Assembly: GCA_018668695.1 (NCBI GenBank) | Contig: JABJBS010000292.1 | Span: forward strand, 1 to 47,339 | Origin: Deltaproteobacteria bacterium | GTDB lineage: Bacteria; Myxococcota; XYA12-FULL-58-9; JABJBS01 | Reading direction: 5' to 3' | Length of the DNA stretch: 47,339 nucleotides | Shown here: in pieces, positions 267 to 43,141 of the stretch | How the letters are laid out: each line of letters begins with the position of its first letter | Position numbering within the stretch: the stretch's first letter is position 1 | Notes under the pieces: model-generated | Seen by the model: only the letters and a program-made list of their open reading frames with translations | What the model was told of the DNA's origin: nothing | The model's database searches: none | Made by a program: the position numbers and the translations under genes

Positions 267-1172
267 TTAGGTAAGTAGGTAGATCCCGACGAGAGCCACA
301 AATGTGCCTAAAATCGCTCTTCTACTTAGCTCTTCACCTCTCACCTTGGCGATGGCCAGAGCAAAGAGCGGGCTGGTGGATAGCAGCGTCTGGGCCACAG
401 CGGCTGAGGTGTATTTTAGGGAAATTTGCTGGAGCCAAAGCCCGAGAAATGTCCCCATGACGGTGGCCCAAAAAACCATCACCCATAGTTTTCTACCTAA
501 GGTGCCCTGTGAAATTTTTCTTCCAAGCGCGGCGGTACCCTGTTTTGGCATAAAGCTCCCCGCAATGAGAAGGCCGGCCAGAGCCGCCATCAAACGAATG
601 AACGCAGCCCATAACGGATCCAAGGCATGATCGATGAGAACGATATGCGCCATCACCACGCCAGTGGCTTGAGAGATGGAAGCGATGACCGCGAGTATCA
701 GTCCAACTCGAAATACGTCTGGTGCAATTTGCAGCTCGCCGGGCTGACTGCGCTCTAAGACAACTGATGTAACCCCAGCAACGGTTACCAGCACGCCGCA
801 CCAAGCAGCCAACGTGAGTTCTTCTTGGATGGCCACCAGGGCGATGAGGCCGGTGAGCGGGGGAGTGAGTGACTCGATAAGAAGTGCTCGTCTGGGGCCT
901 ATTCTGCTCAACGCCCCGAAAAAAGCTGTGTCACCAATTGTGATGCCAAGGATTCCGCTAAGTCCTAAAAGCAGACCTTGCATGGTCCAGATTTCTTCTG
1001 GAATTCGTTCGAGAGCCACGGCGCAGCCGCCCAGTAGAATCGATGCAATGACGCCCTTAGATATGTTGAGCTGGATTGGAGAGAGTTGCCGGCCAGCTGC
1101 CGCAAACATAAATGTTGCGCTGGCCCATAGACCAGCGGCACTGAGTGCAGCGAGTTCACCTGTATACATCAT
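267..1172 (-). CDS. EamA/DMT-family inner-membrane transporter
   Basis: The 301-residue protein has about ten hydrophobic segments arranged as two EamA (drug/metabolite transporter) halves, the usual length of the family. The first half carries the typical GLWAS start near residue 15 and a conserved GDTAFFGAL stretch near residues 80-88. Such proteins export small metabolites or amino acids; the substrate cannot be read from the sequence. The ATG at 1172 is preceded by GAGGG about 7 bases upstream. The gene starts 85 bases after the stop of the B12-binding MerR regulator on the same strand, so it could be co-transcribed with the biosynthetic operon and export its product, which is an inference. 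Confidence 0.85.
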   Translation of the reverse strand: MMYTGELAALSAAGLWASATFMFAAAGRQLSPIQLNISKGVIASILLGGCAVALERIPEEIWTMQGLLLGLSGILGITIGDTAFFGALSRIGPRRALLIESLTPPLTGLIALVAIQEELTLAAWCGVLVTVAGVTSVVLERSQPGELQIAPDVFRVGLILAVIASISQATGVVMAHIVLIDHALDPLWAAFIRLMAALAGLLIAGSFMPKQGTAALGRKISQGTLGRKLWVMVFWATVMGTFLGLWLQQISLKYTSAAVAQTLLSTSPLFALAIAKVRGEELSRRAILGTFVALVGIYLLT

Positions 1173-1257: not shown

Positions 1258-2310
1258 TTAAACTTGATTTAGTTGGTCACCGAAAAAAAGGTGCAAAGAC
1301 TCAAGGCTTGGGATGCGTTGGACGCTGGGCGGGAGTTGAAGTTGGTTTAGGAGATAATCCGGACCGCCGACCCATACATTGTAGAGTGTACTTAATTCCA
1401 TAATGCCTTGTTCAATCTCACTGGCGTGATCTGGGCTGAGAATAGTTTGGACAGCCAAGAGGACCGCTTGGGGTTTCACACAATGCGCCGCTTCTTGGAT
1501 TTCCTCATAAGGAATGTTGGGCCCCAGATAGACCGGGTTCCAGCCTTGGTGGGTCGCCAAGATACCCGCAATATTGGCTCCGAATTCATGCAGGCACGAA
1601 GGAGGAGTTGCAATAATAACCTTGGGGCCATCAAGGTGAAAACCAGCTTGCTTACGAACGGTGTAGAGCGTGCCTTTGACGATTTCGGTTGCCAAGTGCT
1701 CTTGTCCTACTCCGATGTCGCCGTCTGCCCAAAGTTCACCTATCTTTCTCATTAACGGAGCGACCATGAAGAGAAGAAATGACCGCGTGTCTAAATAGAG
1801 AGATGCATTGGTGAGAACGTTGGATGCTTCGGCGCAATCGTACTCGTCAATAGCTTGAAGAAAACGGTTGAGTGTATGTTCGTAAACAACGGAATCGTCC
1901 TCAACAACTTTCTCAGCAGGCTGAACAGGGTCAAGCGTGTCGGCATGAACAATTTGCAGGAGTTGGTCCTCTTCGAGTCTGGCAATTTCGCTGATTGCAT
2001 GGCCGGCTCGAATAGCTTCTCGCAATAGAGCGAGGCGCCGAACGTCTTCCATGGTGAAGCGTCGAGCATTGCCCTGTGAGCGTCTCGGCACAACTGCCTT
2101 ATAGCGCCTTTGCCAAGCGCGAATGGTCTCTGCTTTTAGCCCGGTGAGTTGAACTACGGCACGCATTGGGTAGAGGCCATCGGGGACCAATTGAGGTTCC
2201 CCGTTGGCTGTCTGATTACTTCGCTTCCGCTCATTTGAAAACATTTCCATTGCTGGTGGAGTTTCCACAAGTCGCGGCTCAAAGTCGGTCTGTCTTTTGG
2301 TGGGAAGCAT
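1258..2310 (-). CDS. MerR-family regulator with cobalamin-binding domain (CarH/LitR-like)
   Basis: This 350-residue protein has a MerR winged helix (residues 48-110) followed by a B12-binding module. The cap carries W194, nine residues, then E204-H205, the W-x9-EH motif of CarH-type adenosylcobalamin photoreceptors. The Rossmann part has H241-E-F-G-A, fitting the HxxG core of the lower cobalt-ligand motif, although the usual acidic residue two positions before the His is Cys239. Family members repress genes in the dark and release DNA when light breaks the Co-C bond; photoreception here is inferred. The start overlaps the stop of the methyltransferase gene (TAATG), so it is translationally coupled and is the last gene of the operon, an arrangement that suits autoregulation. 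The 45-residue N-terminal extension may mean a later start. Confidence 0.88.
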   Translation of the reverse strand: MLPTKRQTDFEPRLVETPPAMEMFSNERKRSNQTANGEPQLVPDGLYPMRAVVQLTGLKAETIRAWQRRYKAVVPRRSQGNARRFTMEDVRRLALLREAIRAGHAISEIARLEEDQLLQIVHADTLDPVQPAEKVVEDDSVVYEHTLNRFLQAIDEYDCAEASNVLTNASLYLDTRSFLLFMVAPLMRKIGELWADGDIGVGQEHLATEIVKGTLYTVRKQAGFHLDGPKVIIATPPSCLHEFGANIAGILATHQGWNPVYLGPNIPYEEIQEAAHCVKPQAVLLAVQTILSPDHASEIEQGIMELSTLYNVWVGGPDYLLNQLQLPPSVQRIPSLESLHLFFGDQLNQV

Positions 2311-3062
2311 TATGCTGATGCACCTAGGTTACTTCCATGCCAAATTGAGACTTCAACGCCATCATCGATGGCTTCAAAATATTCCATGGGTGCTTTGTAA
2401 TGAACACTTGTGTATTTACCGCCGGTGCGAACGTAATCTAGATAGGGAACGAGCGTGTTTTCGAAGATACCAACATTGTCGGCAATGACCGTCGCACCCG
2501 GTGCGAGCAAGTTCTTCTCTTCAAGGGCGAGAAGGTCTGGGAGGTATGAGTCTTTCCAATGATCGATAAATACAACATCGAATGCTTCTTGAAGGCTCGG
2601 GATTTGTTCTTCGGCGCTACCAACTCTTATTTCTACTTGGTCGGATAAGCCTGCGTGGTCGACTACCCGTTTGGCATAACTTGCAAACTCAGCAGACTTT
2701 TCAAGTGAGATAAGTTTACCACCGGTTTGCTGGAGAATACGGCCAGTACGAAGGGCTGAGTAGCCACAGTAACAACCCATCTCTAGCACACGCTGTGCAT
2801 TTGCCTTTTCAAGGGCTTCATCGAGGATTCGACCCTTTTCGATTCCCACATTCATGAGGAAACGTTTTCTAGCGAAAATATCGATGACTCTAAGGGCGTC
2901 GTCGATATTGCCAGCTTCCGCATGACGCTCTACATAATCAGCCAGCTGCTTCTCACGAGCACCACGCATCAAAAGTAAATCGAAGGCCATACGAAAAAGC
3001 TCTCGAAGTCCAAAGAAGAGCCAAGGAAGAAGGCTTTTTAGTTTTATAGTAATGGGAATCAT
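2310..3062 (-). CDS. Catechol O-methyltransferase-like SAM-dependent methyltransferase
   Basis: The 250-residue protein closely follows vertebrate COMT, judged from memory of the human sequence. It has RHAEAGN (46-52), MNVG..KG (70-77), LEMGCYCGYSALR (93-105), DHWKDSYLPD (167-176) and ADNV (194-197). The Mg-binding residues D167, D195 and N196, the catalytic Lys170 and the substrate-binding Glu227 are all present. Residues 5-30 are hydrophobic, like the anchor of membrane-bound COMT. The expected reaction is methyl transfer from SAM to one hydroxyl of a catechol. The ATG at 3062 has a GGAG site 8 bases upstream, 30 bases after the thiamine-enzyme stop, and its TAA overlaps the regulator start. 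In context it probably tailors the operon's product. Confidence 0.88.
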   Translation of the reverse strand: MIPITIKLKSLLPWLFFGLRELFRMAFDLLLMRGAREKQLADYVERHAEAGNIDDALRVIDIFARKRFLMNVGIEKGRILDEALEKANAQRVLEMGCYCGYSALRTGRILQQTGGKLISLEKSAEFASYAKRVVDHAGLSDQVEIRVGSAEEQIPSLQEAFDVVFIDHWKDSYLPDLLALEEKNLLAPGATVIADNVGIFENTLVPYLDYVRTGGKYTSVHYKAPMEYFEAIDDGVEVSIWHGSNLGASA

Positions 3063-3091
3063 ATTCTTATCTCCGTTTTGTAAAGTAGGTC

Positions 3092-4849
3092 TTAAGCAGC
3101 CATCTCGCAGGACGAGACCTCATAGGTTTTGGCTTCTTTCGGTAAAAATGGACTGAAGGGTGGTAACTCTTCTAGGGGCAGCTGGAGTTCCAGAATGCCC
3201 GGCTTGGTGAAGTTCTGATTACGAAAGTCTTCCAACGCCTTTTCTAGTTCAGCTCCGGTTGATGCGGTCTGAGCCCAGAGCTGGTCCGAACCGGCGAGGC
3301 CGCGAGCTACATCCTTGATTTGAATACCTTGGTATTCTGTGGCTTCGGTTCGACCCTCAAAAAAGAGTTGTTGCCGAGTCACACACATTCCGTGTTTGTT
3401 GTTGTTGAAGACAATGAAGAGAATAGGGAGCCCAAGCTCGACGGCCGTGTGGACTTCTAGCCCGAGCATGAGAAATGCTCCGTCTCCACAGATAACCGTT
3501 GTTTGGGTTTTATTAGAACTGCTAATTTGAGCACCGATGGCTGCAGGGATTGAGTATCCCATACCTCCCATGCCGAGTGCGATGGTAGCAGAACTGCCCT
3601 TGGGCATCGCCAGGTAATGCAGCGCACTTGCGGCGCAATTACCTGCATCAAAGATAAGGTGGCCGTTAGCAGGCAAGTGACTTTGAAGTATCGAGAGTGC
3701 CTCGCTTTGAAGAAGTACGGAGTCTCTATCGTATTCTTCGCTCTTCTTTTGAGATGGCGGATCCAATTCTGCAACAAATCGGGTCAGCTTATAGTTCATG
3801 ACCGCAGATGCGTAGAAAGGCTCCGCGCGCCACCTTGCGATTAAGGCATTAAAGGTTGGGGATGCGTCGGCTTTGACGGTAAGCGCGGGGGTGATGGCAT
3901 TGAGAATTTTTTCAACATCGATATTCACGACAGCGACCTTCGCACGGCCTAGGCCCATGGCGATGGGGGCTCTGGCCATGATATTGAAACCAGTTCCCAC
4001 GGCGATGATGAGATCTGCCTCTTCATTTAGGTAACGATGCGCAGAGGGGTGCCCTGCAACTCCTACCATGCCAAGATAGAGCGGATGGCCGTTTGGAAAC
4101 GCCGCCGGGTCAGCCATGGTTGTCACCACAGGGATTTTTGCCCCGATTGCATAGTCTCTAGCAACGTTGGGGTGGCTAGCGCGTCGCATTCCACTGCCGA
4201 TAATCATCACCGGATTTTTGGCCTGACGAATCATTAGGTCCAAGCTTAAAATGTCTTCAAACTTTGGAACCAGTGTGGGCCGGTTGTTCAATAATTCTAA
4301 AATCGAATCTGGAACATCTCCAACTTCGCTTTCGTTAAGGTCTCTTGGAATCAAGAGTGCCACCGGTCCGGGACGCCCACTGAGGGCCAACCGAACAGCC
4401 TTCTCAAGGCAGGGCCAAAAATCTGATGGCTGCTCTATGCGGGCGGTGTATTTGGTGATTGCATTCCAGAGTGCCAGAGCATCAACGCTTCGGCCAATTC
4501 CTGACGAGTCTTGAAATGCACCACAGCCTTCAAGGATTTTTGGAGGTTGGCCTACAATTGCGAGGACTGGCACTGAGTCGTTAAAGGATTCGGCTATGCC
4601 AACCGCTAAGTTCATCATGCCGCCACCCGAAGTTGAGCAACAAACACCAAGCGTGCGGTGAACCCGAGCATTGGAATCGGCCATGAAGGCTGCTCCCATC
4701 TCGGTTCTGGCCAAAACGGATTTTAATGTATCTCCACCTAATCTGTGAATGGAGTCATGAAAGTGTTCAATATTGGCACCGCTCACGCCAAATACAGAAC
4801 GAACGCCCCAGTTTTGAAGCGTCGTGACAAGTGCATCTGATAGTTTCAT
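3092..4849 (-). CDS. Thiamine-diphosphate-dependent enzyme, acetolactate-synthase-like
   Basis: The 585 residues have the three-domain layout of the acetolactate synthase/pyruvate decarboxylase superfamily. The N-terminal pyrimidine domain carries the catalytic Glu50 (RTEMGAAF). The central domain includes IIGSGMRR (216-223). The C-terminal diphosphate domain has GDG (455-457) and NNN (482-484), the Mg/ThDP motif at family spacing. No partner small subunit is nearby and the window has no other branched-chain amino acid genes, so valine/isoleucine synthesis is unlikely. With a KAS III-like enzyme 22 bases upstream it more likely makes an acyloin or a related C-C bond for a secondary metabolite, as ThDP enzymes do in some natural-product clusters (inference). 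The exact substrate cannot be predicted. Confidence 0.85.
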   Translation of the reverse strand: MKLSDALVTTLQNWGVRSVFGVSGANIEHFHDSIHRLGGDTLKSVLARTEMGAAFMADSNARVHRTLGVCCSTSGGGMMNLAVGIAESFNDSVPVLAIVGQPPKILEGCGAFQDSSGIGRSVDALALWNAITKYTARIEQPSDFWPCLEKAVRLALSGRPGPVALLIPRDLNESEVGDVPDSILELLNNRPTLVPKFEDILSLDLMIRQAKNPVMIIGSGMRRASHPNVARDYAIGAKIPVVTTMADPAAFPNGHPLYLGMVGVAGHPSAHRYLNEEADLIIAVGTGFNIMARAPIAMGLGRAKVAVVNIDVEKILNAITPALTVKADASPTFNALIARWRAEPFYASAVMNYKLTRFVAELDPPSQKKSEEYDRDSVLLQSEALSILQSHLPANGHLIFDAGNCAASALHYLAMPKGSSATIALGMGGMGYSIPAAIGAQISSSNKTQTTVICGDGAFLMLGLEVHTAVELGLPILFIVFNNNKHGMCVTRQQLFFEGRTEATEYQGIQIKDVARGLAGSDQLWAQTASTGAELEKALEDFRNQNFTKPGILELQLPLEELPPFSPFLPKEAKTYEVSSCEMAA

Positions 4850-4871
4850 CGTATTCTACCTGGAAACATAA

Positions 4872-5885
4872 TTAGTTTTTGGTGGAGGCGCTGCGGGCTT
4901 GCCAGTCCACAACTGCCGCTGCGGCATAATCTCCAGCATGGGAGAATCCACCGAGAATGACCTTGGAGCCTGGTTTTACCTGGCGTTGCATGACCGCTCG
5001 CTCAAAAGAGACGGGTATGGCTGCGCCAAAGAGATTTCCATATTCGGCAAATGTATCGATGTGCTTGGTTTCAGGCACTTCAAGCGCTTCGCGCCAGTTT
5101 CTTAAGAAGACTGGATTGGGCTGATTGGTAACAAGGAGGTCGATATCATTTTTTGTGATGGATGCTTGTTCGCAAGCTTCATTGATAATGTTGGGAACCA
5201 GTGTATTGGCTCTGCGTACAATGCTCCCAACTTTACGCCGGCTAAAGTCGATCTTAAAGCTGGTCTCTCCGGGTTGCCACCATTTGCGCTCATCCGGTGT
5301 TGAGATTTGCATGTCGCAAGCAAACTCTCCGAAGGTTCGGGTAATGATGGACTGAACGGGTGACTCGTCATTTGCAACGAGGTATCCAACACCACATCCA
5401 TCGCCCGGTACTGCAGATTGAGCTTCTTTAAGGTTCGATTTTTGTCCGAAAATGCGACCCGCTGCAGTTTGTACATTACAGATTAGTGCGCTTTTCGCAT
5501 TGCTTGTTGCCATGAGGCTGCGGGCAAGTTCCATCATAAATACAAACGATACACAGCCGGTATTGTGTACATCGAGAACCCAGCGCGGGTTGGCGCCCAA
5601 ACGATGCGCTATCTCAGCACCGCACCCTGTAAAGGGGAGGTCGGGAAGGCTTACGTTTGTGAGAATGATATCGATGTCTTTAGAACCGTCGATATTCAAA
5701 CGGTCGCAAAGCTTTTCGGTAGCATCCATGATCATATCGGCGGAGCGCTCGTCATGCTGCATATGGCGTCGTTCTTTTGTTCCTTTGAACATGGGCCCCG
5801 TTGTACTGGCGATATCAAAGTGGTCATTGGCCACCACGTGGGCAGGCATTGAGCTGGCGGTTGCGATTAAACTGATGGGCTTCAT
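4872..5885 (-). CDS. Ketoacyl-ACP synthase III-like enzyme with altered triad
   Basis: Thiolase-fold KAS III homologue of 337 residues. The ATG at 5885 is chosen over the in-frame codon at 5921 because GGAGG precedes it and it overlaps the upstream stop as ATGA. The nucleophile Cys111 sits in HNTGCVSF and the Asn of the triad is Asn284 in EYGNLFGAAIP, with the closing GGFSHAGDYAAA loop. The His expected in the segment aligned with FabH PHQAN is replaced: the protein reads TNQPN, giving Asn254. Loss of this His occurs in KAS III relatives that transfer acyl groups without decarboxylative condensation, so an acyltransferase role is plausible. It is coupled to the SRPBCC gene upstream and the ThDP enzyme downstream. 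Confidence 0.85.
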   Translation of the reverse strand: MKPISLIATASSMPAHVVANDHFDIASTTGPMFKGTKERRHMQHDERSADMIMDATEKLCDRLNIDGSKDIDIILTNVSLPDLPFTGCGAEIAHRLGANPRWVLDVHNTGCVSFVFMMELARSLMATSNAKSALICNVQTAAGRIFGQKSNLKEAQSAVPGDGCGVGYLVANDESPVQSIITRTFGEFACDMQISTPDERKWWQPGETSFKIDFSRRKVGSIVRRANTLVPNIINEACEQASITKNDIDLLVTNQPNPVFLRNWREALEVPETKHIDTFAEYGNLFGAAIPVSFERAVMQRQVKPGSKVILGGFSHAGDYAAAAVVDWQARSASTKN

Positions 5886-6553
5886 GCTACTGCCTCCAAT
5901 CCTCGGTAAAGTGGCTGGCATTCTTGATAAGAGCCGATTGCGATGTTGTTAGCGTGACGGTATTCGAGAATCTTTTTGAGATTATCCATTTCAACTTTGT
6001 GACCGGCGTAGAAAAATGGCCACATCTCGCCGACCCATTCGTCACGGTCAGCAGGCGCCGTTTGAGGGAAGGGGTTCTTGTCGTAGAAGGGGTGGTGGCA
6101 GTTGGTCCAGGTGATTACTGAGCCTGGCTTGTTAAACACGAGCTGAGCAGGAACGACTCGCATTAAATACACCATCCACATCTGATCGGGCTGATCCCAG
6201 GCGCAGTGGAAATCAACGGTGCCAGCACCTTCGTGGGTAATGGTTCGACAGAAAATCTTAGTACTGTCGGCAAGCATGTCGTGGCCGATAAGGAGGCCTT
6301 CTTCGCCCGACTCAACAAAGTCACGGGTGCTCCAAGTCCATTCTGCGAGATTATGGGGATCAGCGAGGTACTTGAAGGCCAGCTCGGGCGGGCAATCAAT
6401 GTACTCTTGAATCGTGCAATATTGGCCGTAGATTTTGTCGTGTGGATAAACCGCGTGGGTTAGCTCCATACAGGTCGCAAACATCTCGTCTCTTGAAAAG
6501 TTCTCGATCCTCTGTAGCTCGGGTACATCGTTTATGTGGTGTGTTGCTGTCAT
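5882..6553 (-). CDS. SRPBCC-fold protein, first gene of the operon
   Basis: The 223-residue protein shows the START/SRPBCC (polyketide cyclase/dehydrase) pattern: a conserved YLADPHNLAEWTW stretch (about residues 63-75), a beta-rich middle with FCRTITHEGAG, and a long C-terminal helix around HKVEMDNLKKILEY. Members bind hydrophobic ligands and some catalyse cyclisation or aromatisation of polyketides. No signal peptide is visible, so it is cytoplasmic. AGGAG lies 8 bases before the ATG. Its TGA overlaps the KAS III start by 4 bases, marking it as the first gene of a five-gene operon whose control region is 6554-6977. A ligand-binding or cyclase role in the pathway is inferred. Confidence 0.75.
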   Translation of the reverse strand: MTATHHINDVPELQRIENFSRDEMFATCMELTHAVYPHDKIYGQYCTIQEYIDCPPELAFKYLADPHNLAEWTWSTRDFVESGEEGLLIGHDMLADSTKIFCRTITHEGAGTVDFHCAWDQPDQMWMVYLMRVVPAQLVFNKPGSVITWTNCHHPFYDKNPFPQTAPADRDEWVGEMWPFFYAGHKVEMDNLKKILEYRHANNIAIGSYQECQPLYRGLEAVA

Positions 6554-6620
6554 TGTGTCATCTCCTATTGCGTATGTTCTGGTCGGGGTGGCTCACATGG
6601 GGAGGGGCCGAACCGGTTAA

Positions 6621-6634
6621 CTACTCATGAGTAG
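6621..6634. promoter_or_regulatory. Perfect 14-bp palindrome CTACTCATGAGTAG
   Basis: Perfect inverted repeat 68-80 bases upstream of the SRPBCC start codon, a position suited to an operator. The same CTACT-N4-AGTAG pattern is found at 23511-23524 (perfect arms) and, with one mismatch each, at 6815-6828 and 13745-13758. The binding protein is unknown. Confidence 0.5.
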
Positions 6635-6814
6635 GTTTGGCGCAGGTAGGGGATTTGTACAGGAATCGTCAAGGTGTGAAATGCCACTGTAGAGTGCTTG
6701 TACAGGTCATGCATGACTCAGGTCAGGCCGTTGGCGGGATTCGTGAACACTTAACCTACTGAAATTGTTCGTTAATAATTTCAAGGGAGAGAATGATCAA
6801 AATCCGCACTTAAT

Positions 6815-6828
6815 GTACTTTTAAGTAG
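6815..6828. promoter_or_regulatory. CTACT-N4-AGTAG-type dyad, one mismatch
   Basis: GTACT-TTTA-AGTAG, the second copy of the dyad in this control region, followed by ATAAG. AGTAGATAAG is repeated exactly at 23520-23529 next to another copy of the dyad. Confidence 0.35.
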
Positions 6829-6939
6829 ATAAGTTTTTGTACAGGTTCGGTTGAGGACAGATTCGCGGGAAGAATCTTAGGGGCAAAGAGGAGAAAGTAG
6901 AGACAGGAAGCCTGGCAGGGAATGCTGGAAGACGAGTTT

Positions 6940-6955
6940 CCCACCCCGGGGTGGG
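6940..6955 (-). terminator. Possible terminator, GC-only palindrome
   Basis: CCCACCCCGGGGTGGG is a perfect 16-bp palindrome lying 22 bases past the stop of the minus-strand gene ending at 6978. It has no loop of its own and no T-tract, so a factor-dependent or roadblock terminator is as likely as an intrinsic one. The adjoining run GGGGTGGGGTGGG (6948-6960) resembles a C-rich run at 16709-16724. Confidence 0.35.
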
Positions 6956-6977
6956 GTGGGAGTGTTAAATCGTCTTA

Positions 6978-8855
6978 TCAGTGGAGCGTAGGACAGCCAC
7001 ACCAATCAGATGCAAGTTCAGTTGGCGTGGAGCCAGGGCCATCGTGATAGATGGTCGCTGCTGGAGCATCCAGTAGGTCCGCTTCATAGGCGTACTGGCA
7101 TAAAGGCTTTTGGCCAGAGCCAGCTGCTTGGCTGCCTATTGGTGTGCGGATGTGTCGCTTCACAACACTTGAACAGAGGCCGCATGCTGCAGCCAGCCGC
7201 TCGCTGTTGGGAGCCGCAGCCACGCGCTGCTTGAGAGTGTGAAGAGCTGTATAGCCTTGAGAACCGCTGTACCGTTCACACCAAACCGGTCCGTACGCAT
7301 CTTGGAAGAGACGAGTGACGGCGGTGGATGCGAGAGTTTTTGAAGGCTGAACTTCACTGTGCTTGTGAAGATTCACATCGGAGTAGCTTGCAACTCCTCG
7401 CCCGATATCGACGTAGTGACCGTTTGGCTTAATGTTCATGAGGTCACCAAGACCTCCGGTGGCCAGTTGCGTTCCCTCGGGATCAATCTTTGCGTAAAGG
7501 GCCATCTTGCTAACCATACGAGAAAGGTCGCGGCGATACTGGCTTTGCTTTCTCCACAGTTCCCACCAGCTAAGGTCGTCGTAGTTTTCCGCAGCGTCGG
7601 CGCTGCCTACAAGAACGGTCGTGGTGGCCAGGTAGCTGTCGATTTCGAGATGGTAGGGCCAGAATCCGCCCCAAAGTACATCAATACCGCCGCCCTTTTT
7701 CATGGCTGCATTGGTAGCGCGTTGACCGAAGCAATCTTCTTCTGAAGTGGGGTTAACATTTTCGATATCGTTGTTTGGGTTTGCCGCACCGTGGAATTGT
7801 CCACTTGCTCGGTACACTTCAAGCATGCCTTGTGCACCACATGAGAGTAACCGGCGTTTTTGTTCTGAGAATTCACCGTGGGGATGAAGGTTTGCTGATT
7901 CATCGGCGGCAATTACAGCGTCGAAGTATAGGTCACCCGTCGCAGGATAGGTCACGTTACTATTAGGATACTTAAAGCGTACCTCTTCATGCACGGGGGC
8001 ACAGAGCGCGTCATTGAAGTCACCGAGAAAACCGAGTTGCTCTTGAAGGCTTGAGCGAACACCGTGAATGAGGCCGGTTGTTGCGCCTACCGCGAGGGCA
8101 TCAAAGTGGTCATTCATTAAATCTTTATCTGAGGCTCCCCAGCGTTCCCACATGTGTCCCATACTCCAAGAGTCTTGAAGGAAGTGGTGGCCGATAGACT
8201 CGTACAACAAGGCGAGCTTTTCACAGGGCAAAAGATAGTCGTTTAGAATATGAGCCGACGGGTTGGGCCCCGCAGCATTGGCAACACTTGCACATTGATT
8301 CGCCATTTCCATCGCCAAGCCATGGTAGTGCTTATAGGTTTCAAATGCCTGCGGAACGAAGTGGTTTGAGTTTACTGCACCATTGTGGATCTTTAAATCA
8401 TGGCAAGCTTCGGTAGCGATCCCATTGCCCAATGGACATGTCTCATTACCGGATGCCCAGTCCCACAGGGAGTAGGATAGGTCAGCCAGCTGGCTGAAGT
8501 CGGCAATGTAGATGGAACGGTTATGGGCTTGTGTTGCGCTGCTGAATTCAGCCGGCATCAAAGAAGGCTCCATAGAACCATCAACGTTAACTGACCCGCC
8601 GTTGGTGTAAGCAGTGACTTCGTAGGATTCCAGAAGCTCGGAAGGGATACCTGCGATATCTGACGTGTACTGCCACATAAGCTGATGCTCTAATGACTGA
8701 TGCCAGCTGCCGCGAGCGCTCTCTGGTCCTGGTGCGCATTCTTTATCTCCACGCTTACATCCTGAATCAAAGGCGAAGGCAGAAGAGCACGTTAACATAA
8801 TTCCTATAATAGGAATGACTGAGAATAATGATGGTTTGGTGTTTTGGGTGTACAT
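6978..8855 (-). CDS. Secreted protein with zinc-phospholipase-like HxxxDx5H motif
   Basis: The true start is the ATG at 8855 (625 residues), preceded by GAGGAAATAAAG; the longer frame back to 9017 would overlap the upstream gene. Residues 1-28 form a Sec signal peptide ending SSAFAF. The mature protein has scattered cysteines. Residues 218-236 read YESIGHHFLQDSWSMGHMW, containing H224-x3-D228-x5-H234, the metal-binding pattern of zinc-dependent phospholipase C/S1-P1 nuclease folds. H176, H178 and E183 in the preceding helix could be further ligands. I could not assign a named family, so enzyme activity is inferred from one motif. It lies 19 bases after a membrane-anchored Cys-rich protein gene and is probably co-expressed with it. 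Confidence 0.7.
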   Translation of the reverse strand: MYTQNTKPSLFSVIPIIGIMLTCSSAFAFDSGCKRGDKECAPGPESARGSWHQSLEHQLMWQYTSDIAGIPSELLESYEVTAYTNGGSVNVDGSMEPSLMPAEFSSATQAHNRSIYIADFSQLADLSYSLWDWASGNETCPLGNGIATEACHDLKIHNGAVNSNHFVPQAFETYKHYHGLAMEMANQCASVANAAGPNPSAHILNDYLLPCEKLALLYESIGHHFLQDSWSMGHMWERWGASDKDLMNDHFDALAVGATTGLIHGVRSSLQEQLGFLGDFNDALCAPVHEEVRFKYPNSNVTYPATGDLYFDAVIAADESANLHPHGEFSEQKRRLLSCGAQGMLEVYRASGQFHGAANPNNDIENVNPTSEEDCFGQRATNAAMKKGGGIDVLWGGFWPYHLEIDSYLATTTVLVGSADAAENYDDLSWWELWRKQSQYRRDLSRMVSKMALYAKIDPEGTQLATGGLGDLMNIKPNGHYVDIGRGVASYSDVNLHKHSEVQPSKTLASTAVTRLFQDAYGPVWCERYSGSQGYTALHTLKQRVAAAPNSERLAAACGLCSSVVKRHIRTPIGSQAAGSGQKPLCQYAYEADLLDAPAATIYHDGPGSTPTELASDWCGCPTLH

Positions 8856-8874
8856 CTTTATTTCCTCTAATATA

Positions 8875-9522
8875 TTAGTAGTGAGCGGGTGGTGCCGGTG
8901 AAACACCGGTGAGCAGATCTTCAAGACCTGGAAAGCAAGAGCCATCCGCAAAGTAGACTGTATCAAAAGCGGTAATCGGCTCGACGCCGGATTCTCGTAG
9001 AGTTGCGTAGGAGTCAAAGCAGCTAGCCGGGCAGCAGTGTGCTTCTTCTTCCCAGGGTTTATCGGTAGTGCATTGCGGCACGCTTAGTGCGCAGTCGTCG
9101 AGAGAGCGTTGACCGGGCTCGACGCATCCTACAATCCAACGGGTACAAGCACCGACGGTGGTAAGAGGGTCGCGAAGGTCCTTTTGAATTTCCATGTGTC
9201 CCTGACTCTCGCCACTGTCTACCGGAAAGAGCATGTATCCGCCGGTCTCGGTCTGCTGCAGCTTAAGGGCGTCTAGATCGGGAAGGGCAGGTGGGGTGTA
9301 CTCTACGCGTTTACCAATTTTAGGAGTCGTGGTTTTTGGGGTCGGCGCCTTTATTGCAACTCGGGCTGGTGCCTGTACGGGTGCTGCGATGATTGGCTTT
9401 ACGATTCGTGGCTGAATCGCCTTACTGGTTTCGAGCGTCGCAGTCTCTTTGCTTTGGGTCATCCAACCGATGAGCCCCAGGGCGAGCACCCCTATAACGA
9501 TGTATACGTATTTCGTTTTCAT
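8875..9522 (-). CDS. Membrane-anchored protein with Cys-rich domain
   Basis: The 215-residue protein has a single N-terminal hydrophobic segment (residues 5-21), then a Pro/Ala/Lys/Thr-rich linker (about 35-80) that could span the periplasm. A C-terminal domain (about 85-215) has nine cysteines including an adjacent pair in HCCPASC. No family was recognised. The layout is anchor, flexible stalk and disulfide-stabilised extracytoplasmic domain. It precedes the secreted HxxxDx5H protein by 19 bases, so the two likely act together at the cell surface. GAGGATGAG lies before the ATG. Confidence 0.7.
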   Translation of the reverse strand: MKTKYVYIVIGVLALGLIGWMTQSKETATLETSKAIQPRIVKPIIAAPVQAPARVAIKAPTPKTTTPKIGKRVEYTPPALPDLDALKLQQTETGGYMLFPVDSGESQGHMEIQKDLRDPLTTVGACTRWIVGCVEPGQRSLDDCALSVPQCTTDKPWEEEAHCCPASCFDSYATLRESGVEPITAFDTVYFADGSCFPGLEDLLTGVSPAPPAHY

Positions 9523-12269: not shown

Positions 12270-13460
12270 CTACTCTTCCCAAGTTACATCCACCTGCATG
12301 CCAAAGTGATCTGAGAGGCTTACTTCCACAGTGCCGTCTGTTTCTGACTCAATGGTAACCGACCCATCATAGAGCCGCTGAGGGGCTGATGTGGACGCTT
12401 GCCGAACCATGATATGATCGATGGCGCTATTGACAGGATCATTCGAAATCAGGTTGGCTTCGCACCAAGTGCAAAATGGGACATCTGCCGCGCAGTTGGC
12501 ATCGGCGTAGCCTGCTGCATCCAAAGCACTGTAGTTTTCAGCCCACTCTCCGCTTAGGTCACCTACCGCCGGACCAGCATTGAAATCACCGGAAATAATC
12601 TGGGGCCCACCCAAATTGTTCGTATCCATGGCTGCAATGAGTGTATCCAGCTGGTCTTTATGCTCAGCTTCGTAAGATTCGAAATCACCGCCGTAATCAA
12701 CTCCAAGCTCGGTACTCATATGGGTGCATAGGATCTGTGCGCCATCGACCTCGGCGTAGAGTGCAGGTCGAACAATCAGCCAGGAGTTAAGTGGAATCAG
12801 TTGGGTATTGGTCATCGGTTGTTTACTCAGTAACACGGCGCCATGGCGTCCCTCGTAGAGCCATTCTGTGCTCCCGGAAGTGCATGCCACAAAGATATCA
12901 TCCATATTCCCAAGCCCTAAATTGGCCGCGAGACATTGTTGGCAGTCGGGTCCTAAAGCGCTGTATTCGGTAACACAATTTGTAAGAACACAGTTGCCGA
13001 GATCTGTAGCAGAGTCACATTCGGCAGCGGTGGCACATTCCATCAGTGGGGCGCCTTCATCTGGGGTACATGCAGGGTCGCCTCCGGATTCAACTTCTTC
13101 AAATTGCGAATACTGATGAGGGTATGAGTCCGCGAGCTGGCTTAAGACATATTCACGGTCTTCATCAAACCAAACTTCTTGCAGGCAGATCACATCGGCG
13201 GTTGAGGTCGCGACCGCTGCCACAACAGGGTCCCGGCGTTCAGCTGCATAGGGAACATAACCCGGCGCCAACCCCATGTTATAGGTTGCAACTGCCAGCG
13301 TTTTGGTTGCTTGTGTAACTTCGCTCGGATCAGAGGGGTCCGTCGTTTCTGACGGGTCAGCTGGATCTGTCGTTTCTGATGGGTCTACGGGTTCTGGATC
13401 ATCACCTGTGCAAGAGGCACACAGCAATATAGCGATCAGTCCTAATGGTAGTCTTTTCAT
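12270..13460 (-). CDS. EEP-family (DNase I-like) hydrolase lipoprotein
   Basis: 396 residues. The signal peptide ends at the lipobox CASC (Cys17), followed by an acidic Asp/Pro/Ser/Thr repeat linker (21-50). The catalytic fold shows ATYNMG (N61), CLQEVW (E95), THMS (H247), GDFNAGP (D292, N294), AIDHI (D348) and SDHFG (D384, H385), the endonuclease/exonuclease/phosphatase set. An insertion at about 131-193 contains eight cysteines and resembles the disulfide-rich modules of myxobacterial surface proteins. Possible substrates include extracellular DNA, sphingomyelin or inositol phosphates; the motifs do not decide. GGAG lies 6 bases before the ATG. It acts outside the cytoplasm. Confidence 0.85.
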   Translation of the reverse strand: MKRLPLGLIAILLCASCTGDDPEPVDPSETTDPADPSETTDPSDPSEVTQATKTLAVATYNMGLAPGYVPYAAERRDPVVAAVATSTADVICLQEVWFDEDREYVLSQLADSYPHQYSQFEEVESGGDPACTPDEGAPLMECATAAECDSATDLGNCVLTNCVTEYSALGPDCQQCLAANLGLGNMDDIFVACTSGSTEWLYEGRHGAVLLSKQPMTNTQLIPLNSWLIVRPALYAEVDGAQILCTHMSTELGVDYGGDFESYEAEHKDQLDTLIAAMDTNNLGGPQIISGDFNAGPAVGDLSGEWAENYSALDAAGYADANCAADVPFCTWCEANLISNDPVNSAIDHIMVRQASTSAPQRLYDGSVTIESETDGTVEVSLSDHFGMQVDVTWEE

Positions 13461-13808
13461 CTGAATCTCCGGGTCGTTAATATTGAGCGCTTCAGGCAGA
13501 GAGTTAACGAGTCTCCTAATTACCTAAAGATTATTCTGACACCGAACACACTGCCGAGCAATGAAACCTGAGCCACGTGCACATGTTGTGAGATAAATAT
13601 CGTAATATTAGAAGCTTGAGCCCACTTTTTTGAAGCAGGGCAGTGCCGGGTGTCGAACCTTGATGAACCTCTTACCCGACAAATTTTCGGATGTAAGTGT
13701 AGGTAGTCTTAAACGAAAATGCTTGGACCGCTCCTGAAAAGTCACTACCATTAAGTAGCTGCAGTAGATTCGTTGAGGTTACTGCAATGGAACACGTGGG
13801 GGGCACGC
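13461..13808. promoter_or_regulatory. Divergent intergenic region with CTACC-N4-AGTAG
   Basis: The gap separates the divergent EEP lipoprotein and TonB-receptor genes and holds no gene. CTACC-ATTA-AGTAG at 13745-13758 (one mismatch from the 6621-6634 palindrome) is followed by a second AGTAG at 13763-13767, about 45 bases before the receptor start, suggesting control of the receptor. Confidence 0.4.
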
Positions 13809-16229
13809 ATGAACCATTCAATTACTCGCGTCGTAACTTTCTTATTCATTCTGGTTTATACATCTCTGGGCGTTGCTCAAGAGCTTGATGGTATGGACAG
13901 TCTCGATTTGAGTGAGCTACTCAATTTGGAAATCACCACGGCTTCAATGTCGGCTGAATCGATTCTTGATGCACCGGCGCCGATGTATATTGTTACCCGG
14001 GAAGACATTAAAAATCGGGGCTATACGGATTTCACCCAAATCATGGATGACCTGCCTGGTTTTGATATCAGCAATGTGGGTGGTAACACGGAGTACTTCG
14101 CTTATCAGCGAGGCTTTCGGTCGGTCTTCAACAACAGAACTCTTTTCCTTATCAACGGACGCACGTTTAACACCCTTTGGTTTCAGGATGCGCAGATTGG
14201 GCACCAGATACCAGTGGAGGCTATTGAACGTATCGAGGTCCTTTATGGTCCTGCCGGTGTTATTTACGGGCCCAACGCCTTTCTCGGCGTAATCAATGTG
14301 ATTACCACCACGGCAGCTGATTTGGATGTTGGCGAGTACGATGTGCGGTCGGCTTTCTCGATGGGTAGCTGGGCCACGCGCCGGGCGGATATTCACGCAC
14401 GCGCAAAAATTTCTGAGAATTTAGCTCTTACTTTAACGGCTCGCTTTGGTCGTTCAGATGGAGCAGATATCAGCGAACGAGACAATAAGTGGATGAGCAC
14501 TGATTTTCTCAACAGCGAAACGATTTATGGTCCCATTTTGGATATGTCGAGCAACGGTTATGATTTTGGAATCTCTTCCAATCCAGACGATGACCGTATG
14601 TTTATGGCTTCTTTGGAAATCGGTGATTTCACTTTAGATGGCTACATGTATGAAATAGCCGGCAGTAATGGACCTCAGTATGCTGGTGACCACTCCCAAG
14701 CTTCTAACTTCTGGCCAGCTAAAGGTATGGGTGGTGCCATTGCTCATAATTATGATGTAGATGATTCTCTTCATATCTTTTCGGAATTGTCTTACCGTAC
14801 ATCGGGTCGATATGGCTTGTGGGTTGATGCTTATCCAAGCTGGAATGAGGGGCAAAGCGAGTACTCTTATTTGTCGATGATTGATTTTAGAACCGATAAC
14901 AATGCGCTGGAATGGCGCCAAAACGTATTTTGGGACATGACCGACGATATGAAATTATCGGCTGGTTATCGCTATGTGCGTAAGCAATTGACCAAGGCCT
15001 ATGATATTGGTGATGGGTATTTCGGCGGTTACAACAGCAATGGTCCTGATGATGGATCTGCTATTTGGGATACATTTCCTTGTGACATTGATTCCGATGG
15101 TGATGGCGAAGCCGATGATACAGGTTTTACGAATTATGAAACCGGAGAGTGCGGCCCTTATGATGCAGGCTCACCATCTTCTTATCGTATGCCAATGGAC
15201 AATATGGTTCTTACGGAAGACATCGGTGGTTTCGTCGAGGGTAGCTACCGCTGGGGTGATCTGAAGCTGAACGTGGGTCTTCGGTACGATATCAATACAA
15301 ACCCTCAGGTATCACCTGAAGATGAAGACGACCCAACTTCGCACCGTGGTTATAAAGCAATCAGCCCTCGGGTAGGTCTTATCTACAAATTCAGTGACTT
15401 GGGCTTTATTGAAAACGGAGCTGTTAAGTTTCTCTATGGTACAGCCATTCAGGAACCCGCGCCGACTCAGCTTTGGGGAGGTTGGTCAGGCCGTGCAGCA
15501 GCACCTGGATTGCAGGAAGAGAGTGGTCGTAACTACGAACTCGTAACCTTGCTTCAGACGGGGCCAGTACTGAGTGACATTTCGATGTTTTTCGCTGAGT
15601 ACCAAAAGGTTCACGTTGCACCAGCAGATAATGCGGGCCGTCGCCGTATTTGGGGCGCTGAATACAAAGGTCGCCTTGAGCTTGAGAACCCGATTCCAAG
15701 CTCTGCTAAAATTACCAGCTATGTGAACCTGAGTTATACCAAGAGCGAGTCTTACCGCTATTACGATTTTGAGACAGGCGAGTGGACAGTTGTTGGGGAT
15801 AACCAGACGCAGGATACCGGGGACATCGCGCCAGTGAAACTCCACTTGGGTATGAATATTCCGATGACGGAGTACTTTAACTTAAACGTGCGTGGCCGTT
15901 ACATTGCCGCGAAGATACCGTTCCTCTCGAACCCATTGCGCGACCCATCTCGCCCAGACGGTGGGGAACCGGATTATTTCCACGAGCACTTCGTTGGCGA
16001 TGTTTCTATGAGCCTGCACTACGGTATCGCAACTTTGAACTTCTCAATCTACAACATTACCAATGCTGACTATAACCATCCAGGTGATGGGGAGGCCAAC
16101 GCGGGTGATGGCTGGGTTGTGAAGCCTGATGGCACCATGGATACAACTGTGCGGGCAACAGGCTACCGAAACTCTTTGGTGCCCCAAGCTCTACGCAATT
16201 TCATGATGACGTTGAAGCTTGATATGTAG
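13809..16229 (+). CDS. TonB-dependent outer-membrane receptor
   Basis: The ATG at 13809 gives 806 residues with a signal peptide (MNHSITRVV to GVAQ). The plug domain carries APMYIVTREDIKNRGY, the GFRSVFNNRTLFLINGR stretch and IERIEVLYGPAGVIYG, all standard. The rest is a beta barrel with repeated aromatic/glycine strands (KLSAGYRYVRK, DLKLNVGLRYDIN, AISPRVGLIYKF). An extracellular-loop segment near residues 425-445 reads DIDSDGDGEADD, a calcium-loop-like acidic run next to a Cys pair. The final residue is Met rather than the usual aromatic. Substrate is unknown: no siderophore, B12 or ExbBD/TonB genes are adjacent. The in-frame TTG at 13773 was rejected as a start because the signal peptide begins at 13809. 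Confidence 0.92.
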   Translation: MNHSITRVVTFLFILVYTSLGVAQELDGMDSLDLSELLNLEITTASMSAESILDAPAPMYIVTREDIKNRGYTDFTQIMDDLPGFDISNVGGNTEYFAYQRGFRSVFNNRTLFLINGRTFNTLWFQDAQIGHQIPVEAIERIEVLYGPAGVIYGPNAFLGVINVITTTAADLDVGEYDVRSAFSMGSWATRRADIHARAKISENLALTLTARFGRSDGADISERDNKWMSTDFLNSETIYGPILDMSSNGYDFGISSNPDDDRMFMASLEIGDFTLDGYMYEIAGSNGPQYAGDHSQASNFWPAKGMGGAIAHNYDVDDSLHIFSELSYRTSGRYGLWVDAYPSWNEGQSEYSYLSMIDFRTDNNALEWRQNVFWDMTDDMKLSAGYRYVRKQLTKAYDIGDGYFGGYNSNGPDDGSAIWDTFPCDIDSDGDGEADDTGFTNYETGECGPYDAGSPSSYRMPMDNMVLTEDIGGFVEGSYRWGDLKLNVGLRYDINTNPQVSPEDEDDPTSHRGYKAISPRVGLIYKFSDLGFIENGAVKFLYGTAIQEPAPTQLWGGWSGRAAAPGLQEESGRNYELVTLLQTGPVLSDISMFFAEYQKVHVAPADNAGRRRIWGAEYKGRLELENPIPSSAKITSYVNLSYTKSESYRYYDFETGEWTVVGDNQTQDTGDIAPVKLHLGMNIPMTEYFNLNVRGRYIAAKIPFLSNPLRDPSRPDGGEPDYFHEHFVGDVSMSLHYGIATLNFSIYNITNADYNHPGDGEANAGDGWVVKPDGTMDTTVRATGYRNSLVPQALRNFMMTLKLDM

Positions 16230-22942: not shown

Positions 22943-23473
22943 TTATTCACACTCAATAACTGGGCCTTGGCCAATTTCAGTAGACGGGCCACACCAAGTT
23001 TGGCTTGCAATCAGGCAAGAGAAAACGGCGTTGCATGTCCAAGTTGCAGTGTCTGCGCCGGCGTCGTAGCAAACCTGGTTTGAAGCGCACTGAATGCTGC
23101 AGTATCCGTCGCTAGCACCAGGCTGCTTGATGCAGAAGTCAGTTGGAGCGCCGCAATCGCTATCGGCGGTGCAGTATGCGCCCCAGTTTTCAGAAACTTC
23201 AGTACCGTCAGTTGTGTCGTCAGTTGTGTCGTCAGTTGTGTCGTCGGTTGTGTCGTCAGTTGTGTCGTCAGTTGTGTCGTCAGTTGTGTCGTCAGTTGTG
23301 CCGTCAGTTGTGCCGTCAGTTGTGCCGTCAGTTGTGCCGTCAGTGTTGGTCTCGTCTGCAGTTTCAGTGCTGTCAGTCGTTTCTGCATCTTCGCCGCAAC
23401 CGACCATACCGAAGAGGGTCATGGAGACGGTTAGTCCGAGTACGATGGCATTGAGTGGGAGGATATTTTTCAT
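22943..23473 (-). CDS. Lipoprotein with Thr/Asp repeat stalk and Cys-rich domain
   Basis: 176 residues. The signal peptide ends LFGMVGC (Cys26). Residues 31-90 are a low-complexity stalk of four TDGT and seven TDDT units, then a domain (about 95-176) with nine cysteines including TADSDCGAPTDFCI. It appears to be a surface-displayed small disulfide domain on an acidic stalk. No function is recognised. CAGGAG lies 7 bases before the ATG. Upstream (23511-23524) is the dyad CTACT-N4-AGTAG, suggesting shared control with the 6553 operon and the TonB receptor. Confidence 0.75.
   Translation of the reverse strand: MKNILPLNAIVLGLTVSMTLFGMVGCGEDAETTDSTETADETNTDGTTDGTTDGTTDGTTDDTTDDTTDDTTDDTTDDTTDDTTDDTTDGTEVSENWGAYCTADSDCGAPTDFCIKQPGASDGYCSIQCASNQVCYDAGADTATWTCNAVFSCLIASQTWCGPSTEIGQGPVIECE
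23207..23338. repeat. Tandem repeat, 11 copies of a 12-bp unit
   Basis: Eleven head-to-tail units of GTCAGTTGTGTC: seven end in GTGTC (one with GTCGG) and four in GTGCC. It lies in frame within the lipoprotein gene and encodes its stalk, so copy-number changes keep the reading frame and only alter stalk length. Near identity of the units implies recent expansion. Confidence 0.95.
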
Positions 23474-40421: not shown

Positions 40422-41759
40422 TTAAGCCCCAGCCACGCTCAGCTTGTCGAAACGTATCAGTGGCGCAAAGAATGACCGAGAATGGTCTGAATGCGTGGTG
40501 TCACCAATCGCTGAAATTTCTTGCAACATTTTATAAAAGTTCCCGGCAACTGTAACGCCTCGAACAGCTTGTTTGCGTTCTCCATTCTCATGAAGAAACC
40601 CGCTGGCTCCGAAGGAGAAGTCGCCACTGATGGCATTGGCACCCGAATGTACACCTTGGAGGCTGACCAGCTCGAGGTAGGTTCCTGATTTAAGGTCCTT
40701 CTCAGTTTGGCTTCCGGTACCGATACAAAGGTGGCTCGGTGACACCGAGAGTGCGCTCTTGGTTCCGCGGGCCGCATTTGCAGTATTAGCAGTACCAAAG
40801 AAGTTGGCCGTGGCACTGTTGTGGAGAAAAGTCGAAAGCTTACCAGCTTCAACGATAGGCGTTCGAACCGTTGCAAATCCTTCGCTGTCGAAAGCCTGCA
40901 GCGCAAAGCCGCCATCAACGGATGGGTCGTCGAAAAGCGAGAACTCAGAATGAGCGATGGTTTCGCCAATCTTTTCTCGAAGTGGATTCAGACCCTTCAT
41001 TGCGGATTGCCCAGACCAACACATGCCAAAGGCAGAGAGTAAATCGTTGAGACAATCGGTGGTAAAGACCACTTCATAGGCTCCGGTAGAAACTGGGGTG
41101 CCGGTGAGTAAGTCCTTGGCCGTTTCATAGGCTTCATCGGTTACGCGCTGAGCACTTAATTCTTGAAATTGACGACCCACTTCATAGCCAAGGTGCATCG
41201 ATTGCTGACCCTCTTGGTCCAGGAGAGCATAGGTGTAACAGCTTACTTGGCGCTCCTGGTGGGAACACGTATGACCTAAAGTGTTGGCCATAGAGATCTC
41301 GTAATTGATTTCGGAAAAGGCATTGTAGGGCGCTTTGGCGGGGATATCTCGTCCCTCAAGCCCACTCTCAAGTGCTAAAGTGAGTGCCACTTTTTCTTCT
41401 ACGGTGGCCTCGTCCTCTAAGCAGGTTCTACTGGACCAATCTGCAATCTTTTGGTCGTTGGCACAGATCTTCTCATTCGGATCCTCTTTGGCATAACCCG
41501 CATTTTCAATGGCGGTTTGGACCATGGTCTCTAGGCTCGATGGCTCAACGGATTCGGAATAACTTGTGCCGACTTGGTCACCTTGCACAACTCGAATACC
41601 AACGCAGCGCGAAGAGGTCACTTTATACTCGGAAAGTTCTCCGCGGTCTGCCTTGAGACCAAGTTGCTCTTCTTGTGTCAGAATGACATCCGCATCGACA
41701 TTCTTATCCTTAGCGATTTTTATAACAGAGTCTAAAATTTCACGATTGGTACTACTCAT
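40422..41759 (-). CDS. pmbA: TldE/PmbA-family metalloprotease subunit
   Basis: The ATG at 41759 overlaps the TldD stop (ATGA) and has GGAGG 6 bases before, so it is preferred over the longer frame to 41843; 445 residues. It has the PmbA/TldE architecture: an N-terminal domain with AKDKNVDADVILTQEEQ, and C-terminal SALSVSPSHLCIGTGSQTEKDL and GDFSFGASGFLHENGER. In E. coli TldE is the non-catalytic partner of TldD; the pair degrades unfolded peptides and matures microcin B17. Here it probably forms the same heterodimer. Confidence 0.93.
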   Translation of the reverse strand: MSSTNREILDSVIKIAKDKNVDADVILTQEEQLGLKADRGELSEYKVTSSRCVGIRVVQGDQVGTSYSESVEPSSLETMVQTAIENAGYAKEDPNEKICANDQKIADWSSRTCLEDEATVEEKVALTLALESGLEGRDIPAKAPYNAFSEINYEISMANTLGHTCSHQERQVSCYTYALLDQEGQQSMHLGYEVGRQFQELSAQRVTDEAYETAKDLLTGTPVSTGAYEVVFTTDCLNDLLSAFGMCWSGQSAMKGLNPLREKIGETIAHSEFSLFDDPSVDGGFALQAFDSEGFATVRTPIVEAGKLSTFLHNSATANFFGTANTANAARGTKSALSVSPSHLCIGTGSQTEKDLKSGTYLELVSLQGVHSGANAISGDFSFGASGFLHENGERKQAVRGVTVAGNFYKMLQEISAIGDTTHSDHSRSFFAPLIRFDKLSVAGA

Positions 41760-43141
41760 GACTGACCTCCAACGAGAATTTTGTCTACTTTCAAAGCGGG
41801 TTGGCCAACAGTGGTGGGAACTGCTCCACTCACTGAACCGCACATGCCGGCAGCGAGTTCTAAGTCGGACCCAACCATGCTGATTTCTTTCAATACCTTG
41901 GGCCCGGTGCTGATAAGCGTTGCCGATTTAAGTGGGCCAGCAATCTTACCATTCTTGATCAGATAGCCTTCTTGGACGTTGAAGTTAAACTCGCCGGTGC
42001 CGGGTTGAACGGAGCCGCCGCCCATTTTCTTGGCGTAGATTCCGTGCTCAACGCTTGCCAACATTTCGTCCAAGTTGGAGTCGCCTGCTTCGATGAAGGT
42101 GTTACGCATCCGTGAGGCCGGAGCGAATTTGTAGCTCTGCCGTCTTCCTGAACCCGTTGCTTCAAAGCCAGTTTTCATGGCTCCTACACGGTCGACCATA
42201 AATGACGTAAGCTTACCGTCTTTGATAAGCTGCGTGCGTTTGGTTGGCATGCCCTCGTCGTCAATATTGATAGAGCCCCAGGCATTTTCGAGCAGGCCGT
42301 CGTCTACGGCGCTGACCACGGGGTTTGCAATCATCTCACCCATCTTGTCATGAAAAACCGAGGCTTTCTTTTCGACGGATGTGGTTTCGAGTAGGTGGCC
42401 ACAGGCCTCGTGGAAGATAACACCGCCAAAGCCGTTGCCAATCACTACTGGCATTTCGCCTGACGGACAATCGTCAGCATGTAATTTGATCAGTGCTTGC
42501 TTGGCGGCTTGTTGTGCCAGGTCTGCTGCATCGTGGCCGGTGTTAAACTCCCAGCCTTGTAATGCGCCAGGAGCAACATAACCAGAGGATTGAAGCCCTG
42601 AGTCTTCTGCTACTGCGGTGGCAGCAATCCGGCAGTAATGGCGAACATCTTGGGCATGAAGGCCGTCTGAGTTGAAAATCTCTACGGCTTGCTCACGTTG
42701 AAGAACACGACCGATAAATTGTTGAATGTGATTGTGCTCTGCTCGTGCGGAGACATCCATTCTTTTCAGGAAGTCCACTTTTGAGTCGATGTTTGAACTT
42801 GCAGAAAGTGGGTGTTGGACCGGGTGGCGGTCGGCAAGATTCTGCTTGGTAAACTGGGTGCTACGTTTCTCACCTTTATCGTCGAGCTGAGCTGCGATGA
42901 GAGAGATTACGCGGAGCAATTCTTCCTGAGCAGTGTGGTTCGTGTATCCGTAGAGCACGCTCCTACCCACGACCATTCTAATACCCACACCGAAGTCGAT
43001 ACCTGAATTTATTTTCTCGATTTTACTGGAAAGCAGTTCTACCTCGGTGATTTTTTGATTCTCAACAAAGAGATCCACAAAATCAGCACCGAGAAAAAGT
43101 CCACGGTCGATAACCGCTTGAGCTACGCTGGAATTCAACAT
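41756..43141 (-). CDS. tldD: TldD-family zinc metalloprotease
   Basis: 461 residues. The zinc motif HEACGH is at 244-249, with a likely Cys ligand in AAGMCGSVSG near the C-terminus. Preceding sequence VVIGNGFGGVIFHEACGHLLE and the ATGSGRRQSYKFAPASRMRNT stretch are conserved in TldD. It is translated with TldE as a coupled pair. AGAGGAGATAAAG precedes the ATG. It has the expected length of TldD (about 470-480). Confidence 0.95.
   Translation of the reverse strand: MLNSSVAQAVIDRGLFLGADFVDLFVENQKITEVELLSSKIEKINSGIDFGVGIRMVVGRSVLYGYTNHTAQEELLRVISLIAAQLDDKGEKRSTQFTKQNLADRHPVQHPLSASSNIDSKVDFLKRMDVSARAEHNHIQQFIGRVLQREQAVEIFNSDGLHAQDVRHYCRIAATAVAEDSGLQSSGYVAPGALQGWEFNTGHDAADLAQQAAKQALIKLHADDCPSGEMPVVIGNGFGGVIFHEACGHLLETTSVEKKASVFHDKMGEMIANPVVSAVDDGLLENAWGSINIDDEGMPTKRTQLIKDGKLTSFMVDRVGAMKTGFEATGSGRRQSYKFAPASRMRNTFIEAGDSNLDEMLASVEHGIYAKKMGGGSVQPGTGEFNFNVQEGYLIKNGKIAGPLKSATLISTGPKVLKEISMVGSDLELAAGMCGSVSGAVPTTVGQPALKVDKILVGGQS

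Follow-up and report, generated by a model that had tools for sequence, protein, structure and literature searches.

What product would the five minus-strand genes at 1258-6553 of the 47,339-nucleotide stretch analysed here (the window; contig JABJBS010000292.1 of a Deltaproteobacteria bacterium) make, and what would control them? A first-pass annotation had called the locus a biosynthetic operon matching no described pathway. The operon survives analysis; the claim of novelty falls, since SRPBCC, KASIII-like and thiamine diphosphate (ThDP) enzymes together form the known carbazole-forming triad CqsB2/CqsB1/CqsB3, equivalent to NzsI/NzsJ/NzsH (PMC7466098, a review). Our best reading, and a probable one, is an operon for an O-methylated carbazole that is repressed by a CarH-like protein. 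Judged from the gene content, it is very likely that the product would be a carbazole and fairly likely that it would be O-methylated. Substrates, product and light control are predictions throughout, drawn from the families of the genes, their order in relatives, residues of the active sites and operator-like sites.

The features of the locus, from the upstream end, are as follows.

6554..6977, minus strand: predicted promoter/operator region, 424 base pairs (bp) of DNA upstream of the operon.
5882..6553, minus strand: predicted CqsB2/NzsI-type carbazole synthase (SRPBCC/Bet v1 fold), 223 amino acids, from its PDB match to CqsB2, Foldseek and active-site residues.
4872..5885 (longer frame to 5921), minus strand: KASIII-like condensing enzyme, predicted CqsB1/NzsJ role, from Pfam ACP_syn_III_C.
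3092..4849, minus strand: ThDP enzyme, predicted CqsB3/NzsH role, from PDB matches to BbmA and CsmA and the kept catalytic Glu and GDG.
2310..3062, minus strand: catechol O-methyltransferase (COMT) with a hydrophobic N-terminal helix, 250 amino acids, from COMT structures and motifs.
1258..2310, minus strand: CarH/LitR-like MerR and cobalamin-binding regulator, 350 amino acids, from CarH structures and ligand residues.
267..1172, minus strand: EamA/DMT-family transporter (Pfam EamA, 6e-31), a possible exporter and putative member of the operon.

The five genes lie where they had been placed, on the same strand, in the same order (SRPBCC, KASIII, ThDP, COMT, CarH-like, 5′ to 3′) and as tightly coupled, with measured junctions of -4, 22, 29 and -1 bp: the SRPBCC stop and KASIII start overlap (ATGA), gaps separate KASIII from ThDP and ThDP from COMT, and the COMT and regulator genes share a base (TAATG). 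The stretch originally assigned to them, 1258-6977, is filled by genes only to 6553, the remainder being the upstream region, which holds none. The transporter gene starts 85 bp past the regulator gene. We set the KASIII start at the ATG at 5885 (MKPISLIATA) and not at the upstream ATG at 5921, because a homologue in a Tara metagenome-assembled genome (MAG; L013) begins MKPVSLIATA directly after the SRPBCC stop. The block also occurs elsewhere, both in other genomes and at another place in the host genome, which puts it beyond chance.

Carbazoles are three-ring antioxidant alkaloids, known otherwise mainly from Streptomyces. The protein that would close the ring, previously labelled SRPBCC, has no Pfam match but does match a Bet v1-fold cyclase, CqsB2 (PDB IDs: 6ipv; 6ipw). 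This is its sole match among all PDB sequences (E 1.2e-46, 41% identity). Its AlphaFold model is poor (predicted local distance difference test 50, with two sequences in the alignment), and a Foldseek search with that poor model places 6ipv first at 8e-11, the second-best match scoring 4e-3. Four of the five proposed active-site residues of CqsB2 are kept (Y144, Y172, H206 and E209), with Asp in place of E105. In the biosynthesis of carquinostatin, CqsB2 acts as the carbazole synthase and does so without a cofactor (PMC7466098). Identity with the scytonemin enzyme ScyC was rejected, that match (E 4e-4) being far weaker.

The remaining family calls (KASIII, ThDP, COMT-type Methyltransf_3, MerR with B12-binding_2, and EamA) were all confirmed by Pfam. 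The KASIII-like enzyme keeps the Cys and Asn of the Cys-His-Asn triad and has Asn for the catalytic His, while the triad is intact in the enzymes of Embleya and G058. The ThDP enzyme is closest to the alpha-hydroxy-beta-keto acid synthases; its best PDB match is BbmA (3e-66), presumably the protein also written BpmA, and CsmA matches as well (6e-46). The earlier proposal that these two enzymes cooperate on an acyloin-type intermediate holds up as a prediction, and so does that of a methylated aromatic product. The fourth gene is, by sequence, a true COMT: it matches mammalian-type COMT structures at E 2e-47 and, aligned to them, keeps the DHWKD, ADN and EY motifs. The Mg/S-adenosylmethionine and catalytic residues so kept are those numbered D141, K144, D169, N170 and E199 in rat COMT. 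Having a COMT in the operon would point to a catechol in its product.

Relatives of the locus keep this arrangement in part, and the comparison of gene order is favourable for four of the five genes, the regulator being the exception. The order SRPBCC-KASIII-ThDP is common to the window, to a second triad in the host genome (G000, 5.87 Mb; contig C284, L005 9182-13184) and to the genomes G300 and G375. The C284 triad is 62, 54 and 55% identical to that of the window (SRPBCC, KASIII and ThDP); it is followed by a MarR gene, without a COMT, and the contig ends shortly beyond. G300 (L077) reads SRPBCC-KASIII-ThDP-COMT-TetR-aminotransferase, with a COMT 51% identical to ours in the same position and an aminotransferase gene that overlaps the TetR gene and passes the hisC model. 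The methyltransferase is therefore conserved and the regulator is not. G375 (L078) has a P450 directly downstream of its triad (12594-13961). Further triads lie in G058 and on actinobacterial plasmids (Tsukamurella, R. opacus, Nocardia, Embleya). The KASIII gene of Nocardia NBC_01327 sits a few kb off, adjoining an aminotransferase gene, and that of R. oxybenzonivorans has a frame that seems broken. In G192 (L022 8307-9959) a KASIII domain is naturally fused to a distant CqsB2-like domain (25% identity), and the fusion adjoins another KASIII and an SDR gene.

The cyclase is rare, occurring in 5 of 195 genomes of the phylum (host included) and in 2 of 52 in the class of G300. Two 1.8-Mb genomes of the same phylum carry CqsB2-like genes with no KASIII or ThDP neighbours (L019 9034-9702; L021 9312-9977), and one candidate relative (G233/L018) turned out to be an unrelated SRPBCC. 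Triads in Sorangium and Scytonema have already been noted (PMC7466098), so finding them beyond the actinomycetes is no novelty as such. The closest named relative of the window cyclase is the Tara Oceans MAG mentioned above, labelled an uncultured proteobacterium, which suggests a marine host. Its contig stops 137 bp into the KASIII gene, and the rest of the cluster is absent from the other contigs of the bin. We take its run, ERR599101, to be Tara.

Position 105 divides the cyclases. Among 15 aligned sequences (numbered on CqsB2), Y144, Y172, H206 and E209 are invariant, and position 105 is Glu in CqsB2, Embleya, G058, G046 and G035 and Asp in the window, C284, L013, G300, G375, Rhodococcus (two), Nocardia (two) and Tsukamurella. 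The cyclase tree splits the identical two sets with support of 100/99, and the catalytic His of KASIII is Asn in all eight readable proteins of the Asp set. A second clade (II) of putative carbazole synthases, together with their partner KASIIIs, is marked out by two changes in the active sites that strictly co-occur. The ThDP enzymes group otherwise, those of the window, C284, G300 and G375 falling with Embleya and G058 (48-55% identical to the window enzyme) and the Nocardia type standing apart (32-34%); parts of the clusters have therefore been exchanged. A 2020 review, which mentions the lipocarbazoles of Tsukamurella pseudospumae, states that the machinery making mono-oxygenated carbazoles has yet to be identified (PMC7466098). 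Because clade II includes Tsukamurella, the genus of a lipocarbazole producer, we infer that it may be a candidate for that machinery.

The product of the fifth gene aligns with CarH structures (E 6e-28) over the MerR DNA-binding domain and both B12 domains; its original description as a B12-binding regulator holds. In Pfam, MerR_1 and B12-binding_2 score above the gathering score; B12-binding, at 26.2, is under its cut-off of 32.1, yet aligned to CarH. The equivalents of the dark-state residues W131, E141 and H177 are all kept, and so is that of H142. The upstream region contains the following sites.

6655..6663, minus strand: CCTGTACAA, operator-like site 1.
6698..6706, minus strand: CCTGTACAA, operator-like site 2.
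6837..6845, minus strand: CCTGTACAA, operator-like site 3.
6688..6704, minus strand: TGTACA-AGCAC-TCTACA, two TnnACA repeats 11 bp apart, with the spacing and motif of CarH operators (PMC9304148).

The CCTGTACAA sites, which lie 102, 145 and 284 bp away from the first gene, contain a TGTACA core, which is the half-site of the LitR-family proteins PplR1/PmlR2 (PMC9758184); CarH operators consist of TnnACA repeats with 11-bp spacing (PMC9304148). Three copies within 424 bp have a Poisson probability of 5e-10, for a motif chosen after the region was seen. Genome-wide there are 20 copies against 18 of a reversed-pattern control, and the 17 outside the promoter all lie inside open frames, so that no CCTGTACAA regulon emerges across the genome. 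Scanned for sigma-70 promoters, the DNA upstream of the operon gave no convincing candidate on the operon's own strand. Three sites with a LitR-family core, one of them in a CarH-like tandem, in the regulator's own promoter make autorepression likely, and we predict with good confidence that the regulator controls the operon.

In the pathway that we propose, an aromatic aminotransferase encoded elsewhere would supply indole-3-pyruvate, and the KASIII-like enzyme would later carry out a decarboxylative condensation that uses an acyl thioester provided by fatty-acid metabolism. The SRPBCC enzyme would then close and aromatise ring A of the carbazole, COMT would methylate a phenol or catechol oxygen on that ring, and the product may leave the cell through the DMT protein. 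Enzymes of the bacterial carbazole clusters would in this way build a carbazole out of indole-3-pyruvate, pyruvate and an acyl thioester. The CarH/LitR-like protein would bind the three promoter sites and repress its own operon, with derepression by light or by a shortage of adenosylcobalamin. As to the first step, the Streptomyces carbazole aminotransferase ChlCz1 is annotated as a histidinol-phosphate transaminase, comparable to the HisC-type gene in G300.

The closest described systems are the cqs (carquinostatin) and nzs (neocarazostatin) clusters of Streptomyces, which hold synthase, KASIII-like and ThDP genes together, counterparts of those predicted here. Unlike these, the window operon lacks a P450, a prenyltransferase, a dedicated acyl carrier protein (ACP), a second KASIII and an aminotransferase, has a COMT and a CarH-like regulator in addition, and differs at the two clade II positions. 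The carbazomycin and chlocarbazomycin systems of S. luteoverticillatus and S. tubbatahanensis share the core triad and the carbazole O-methylation predicted here, but the O-methyltransferase proposed in S. tubbatahanensis lies outside the cluster, where the window has a COMT within the operon. For the lipocarbazoles of T. pseudospumae the nearest comparison is a T. tyrosinosolvens plasmid, whose clade II triad has the same two signature residues as the window and a putative lipocarbazole role; its ThDP enzyme, however, is of the other type (32% identical), and no COMT or CarH-like gene adjoins it. CarH/LitR systems of Thermus, Bacillus and Myxococcus resemble the window in the domains and dark-state residues of the regulator, in the position of its gene inside the operon it seems to control and, as far as the operator-like sites here go, in TnnACA/TGTACA motifs, but there the targets are carotenoid genes, where ours are of alkaloid type.

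Several observations weigh against an O-methylated carbazole operon under a CarH-like repressor. On the regulatory side, His132 is replaced by Ala, the NCBIfam CarH equivalog model gives 111 bits against a cut-off of 400, and the 11-bp tandem accompanies just one of the three CCTGTACAA sites. Related loci also differ in their regulators, with TetR in G300 and MarR in C284, so that light control is not conserved. The regulator could accordingly be a B12-binding repressor blind to light, reporting the adenosylcobalamin level or another signal, an explanation that we consider possible though unlikely. In Thermus CarH, where the ligand switch needs His132, this residue becomes the upper ligand after illumination; the H132A protein was mostly tetrameric after light in one study (PMC10442372), though an earlier report saw disassembly. 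Against a light-blind repressor stand the kept dark-state residues and the fact that adenosylcobalamin is itself light-labile. Position 132 is also highly variable in CarH-like proteins across the phylum, being Ala in the nearest relative (L049) and His, Gln, Met, Tyr, Ser or Glu in others, and may therefore not be essential. On balance a light-responsive regulator is an even call. Light-dependent production may follow from the kept adenosylcobalamin residues, but His132 is missing and the regulator is absent from the syntenic relative.

On the chemical side, the changes E105D and His to Asn mean that substrate or product may differ from those of carquinostatin and neocarazostatin. If the clade makes mono-oxygenated carbazoles, the catechol for COMT would be lacking. 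The operon also holds no dedicated ACP or aminotransferase, and the carbazole is predicted from gene families and residues. The same three-enzyme logic might instead act on phenylpyruvate or 4-hydroxyphenylpyruvate and yield a naphthol or other fused-ring product, which the clade II departures from CqsB2/CqsB1 and the absence of a tryptophan-specific gene would fit; we find this improbable, as the other four proposed cyclase residues are kept and clade II includes the genus of a carbazole producer. Very improbable is the analogy first drawn with xenocyloin of Xenorhabdus, in which KASIII would acylate an indole acyloin and leave the third ring unclosed: ThDP acyloin chemistry and KASIII-like enzymes, a group that includes acyl transferases, are indeed common to both, but the xenocyloin pathway is not known to include a carbazole synthase, and we reject the analogy because the first gene here is a CqsB2-type cyclase, which accompanies the KASIII/ThDP pair in every complete triad found and has a relative fused to KASIII in G192.

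Elsewhere in the window, 6978-9017, upstream of the operon, encodes a large secreted-looking protein with no Pfam or NCBIfam match, 22943-23473 a lipoprotein-like protein with a long TTDGTTD/TTDD repeat run, and 40422-43141 a neighbouring gene pair that by eye resembles TldD/PmbA-type peptidases.

With a carbazole as the probable product, an operon to which no product had been assigned can now be tested as a carbazole pathway of an uncultured lineage, its core being only four enzyme genes, and clade II makes the review's question on the machinery for mono-oxygenated carbazoles testable. More speculatively, a B12 light switch of the CarH kind may have been placed on an alkaloid pathway, with light prompting the production of a radical-scavenging carbazole that serves as sunscreen or quencher, the D105 cyclase and Cys-Asn-Asn KASIII being machinery for mono-oxygenated carbazoles such as lipocarbazole or a COMT-tailored offshoot of it; we regard this combination as doubtful. 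Should the regulator prove to be a photoreceptor, the reach of CarH-type control would widen beyond carotenoids to take in an antioxidant alkaloid, a natural parallel in that products of both kinds quench damage.

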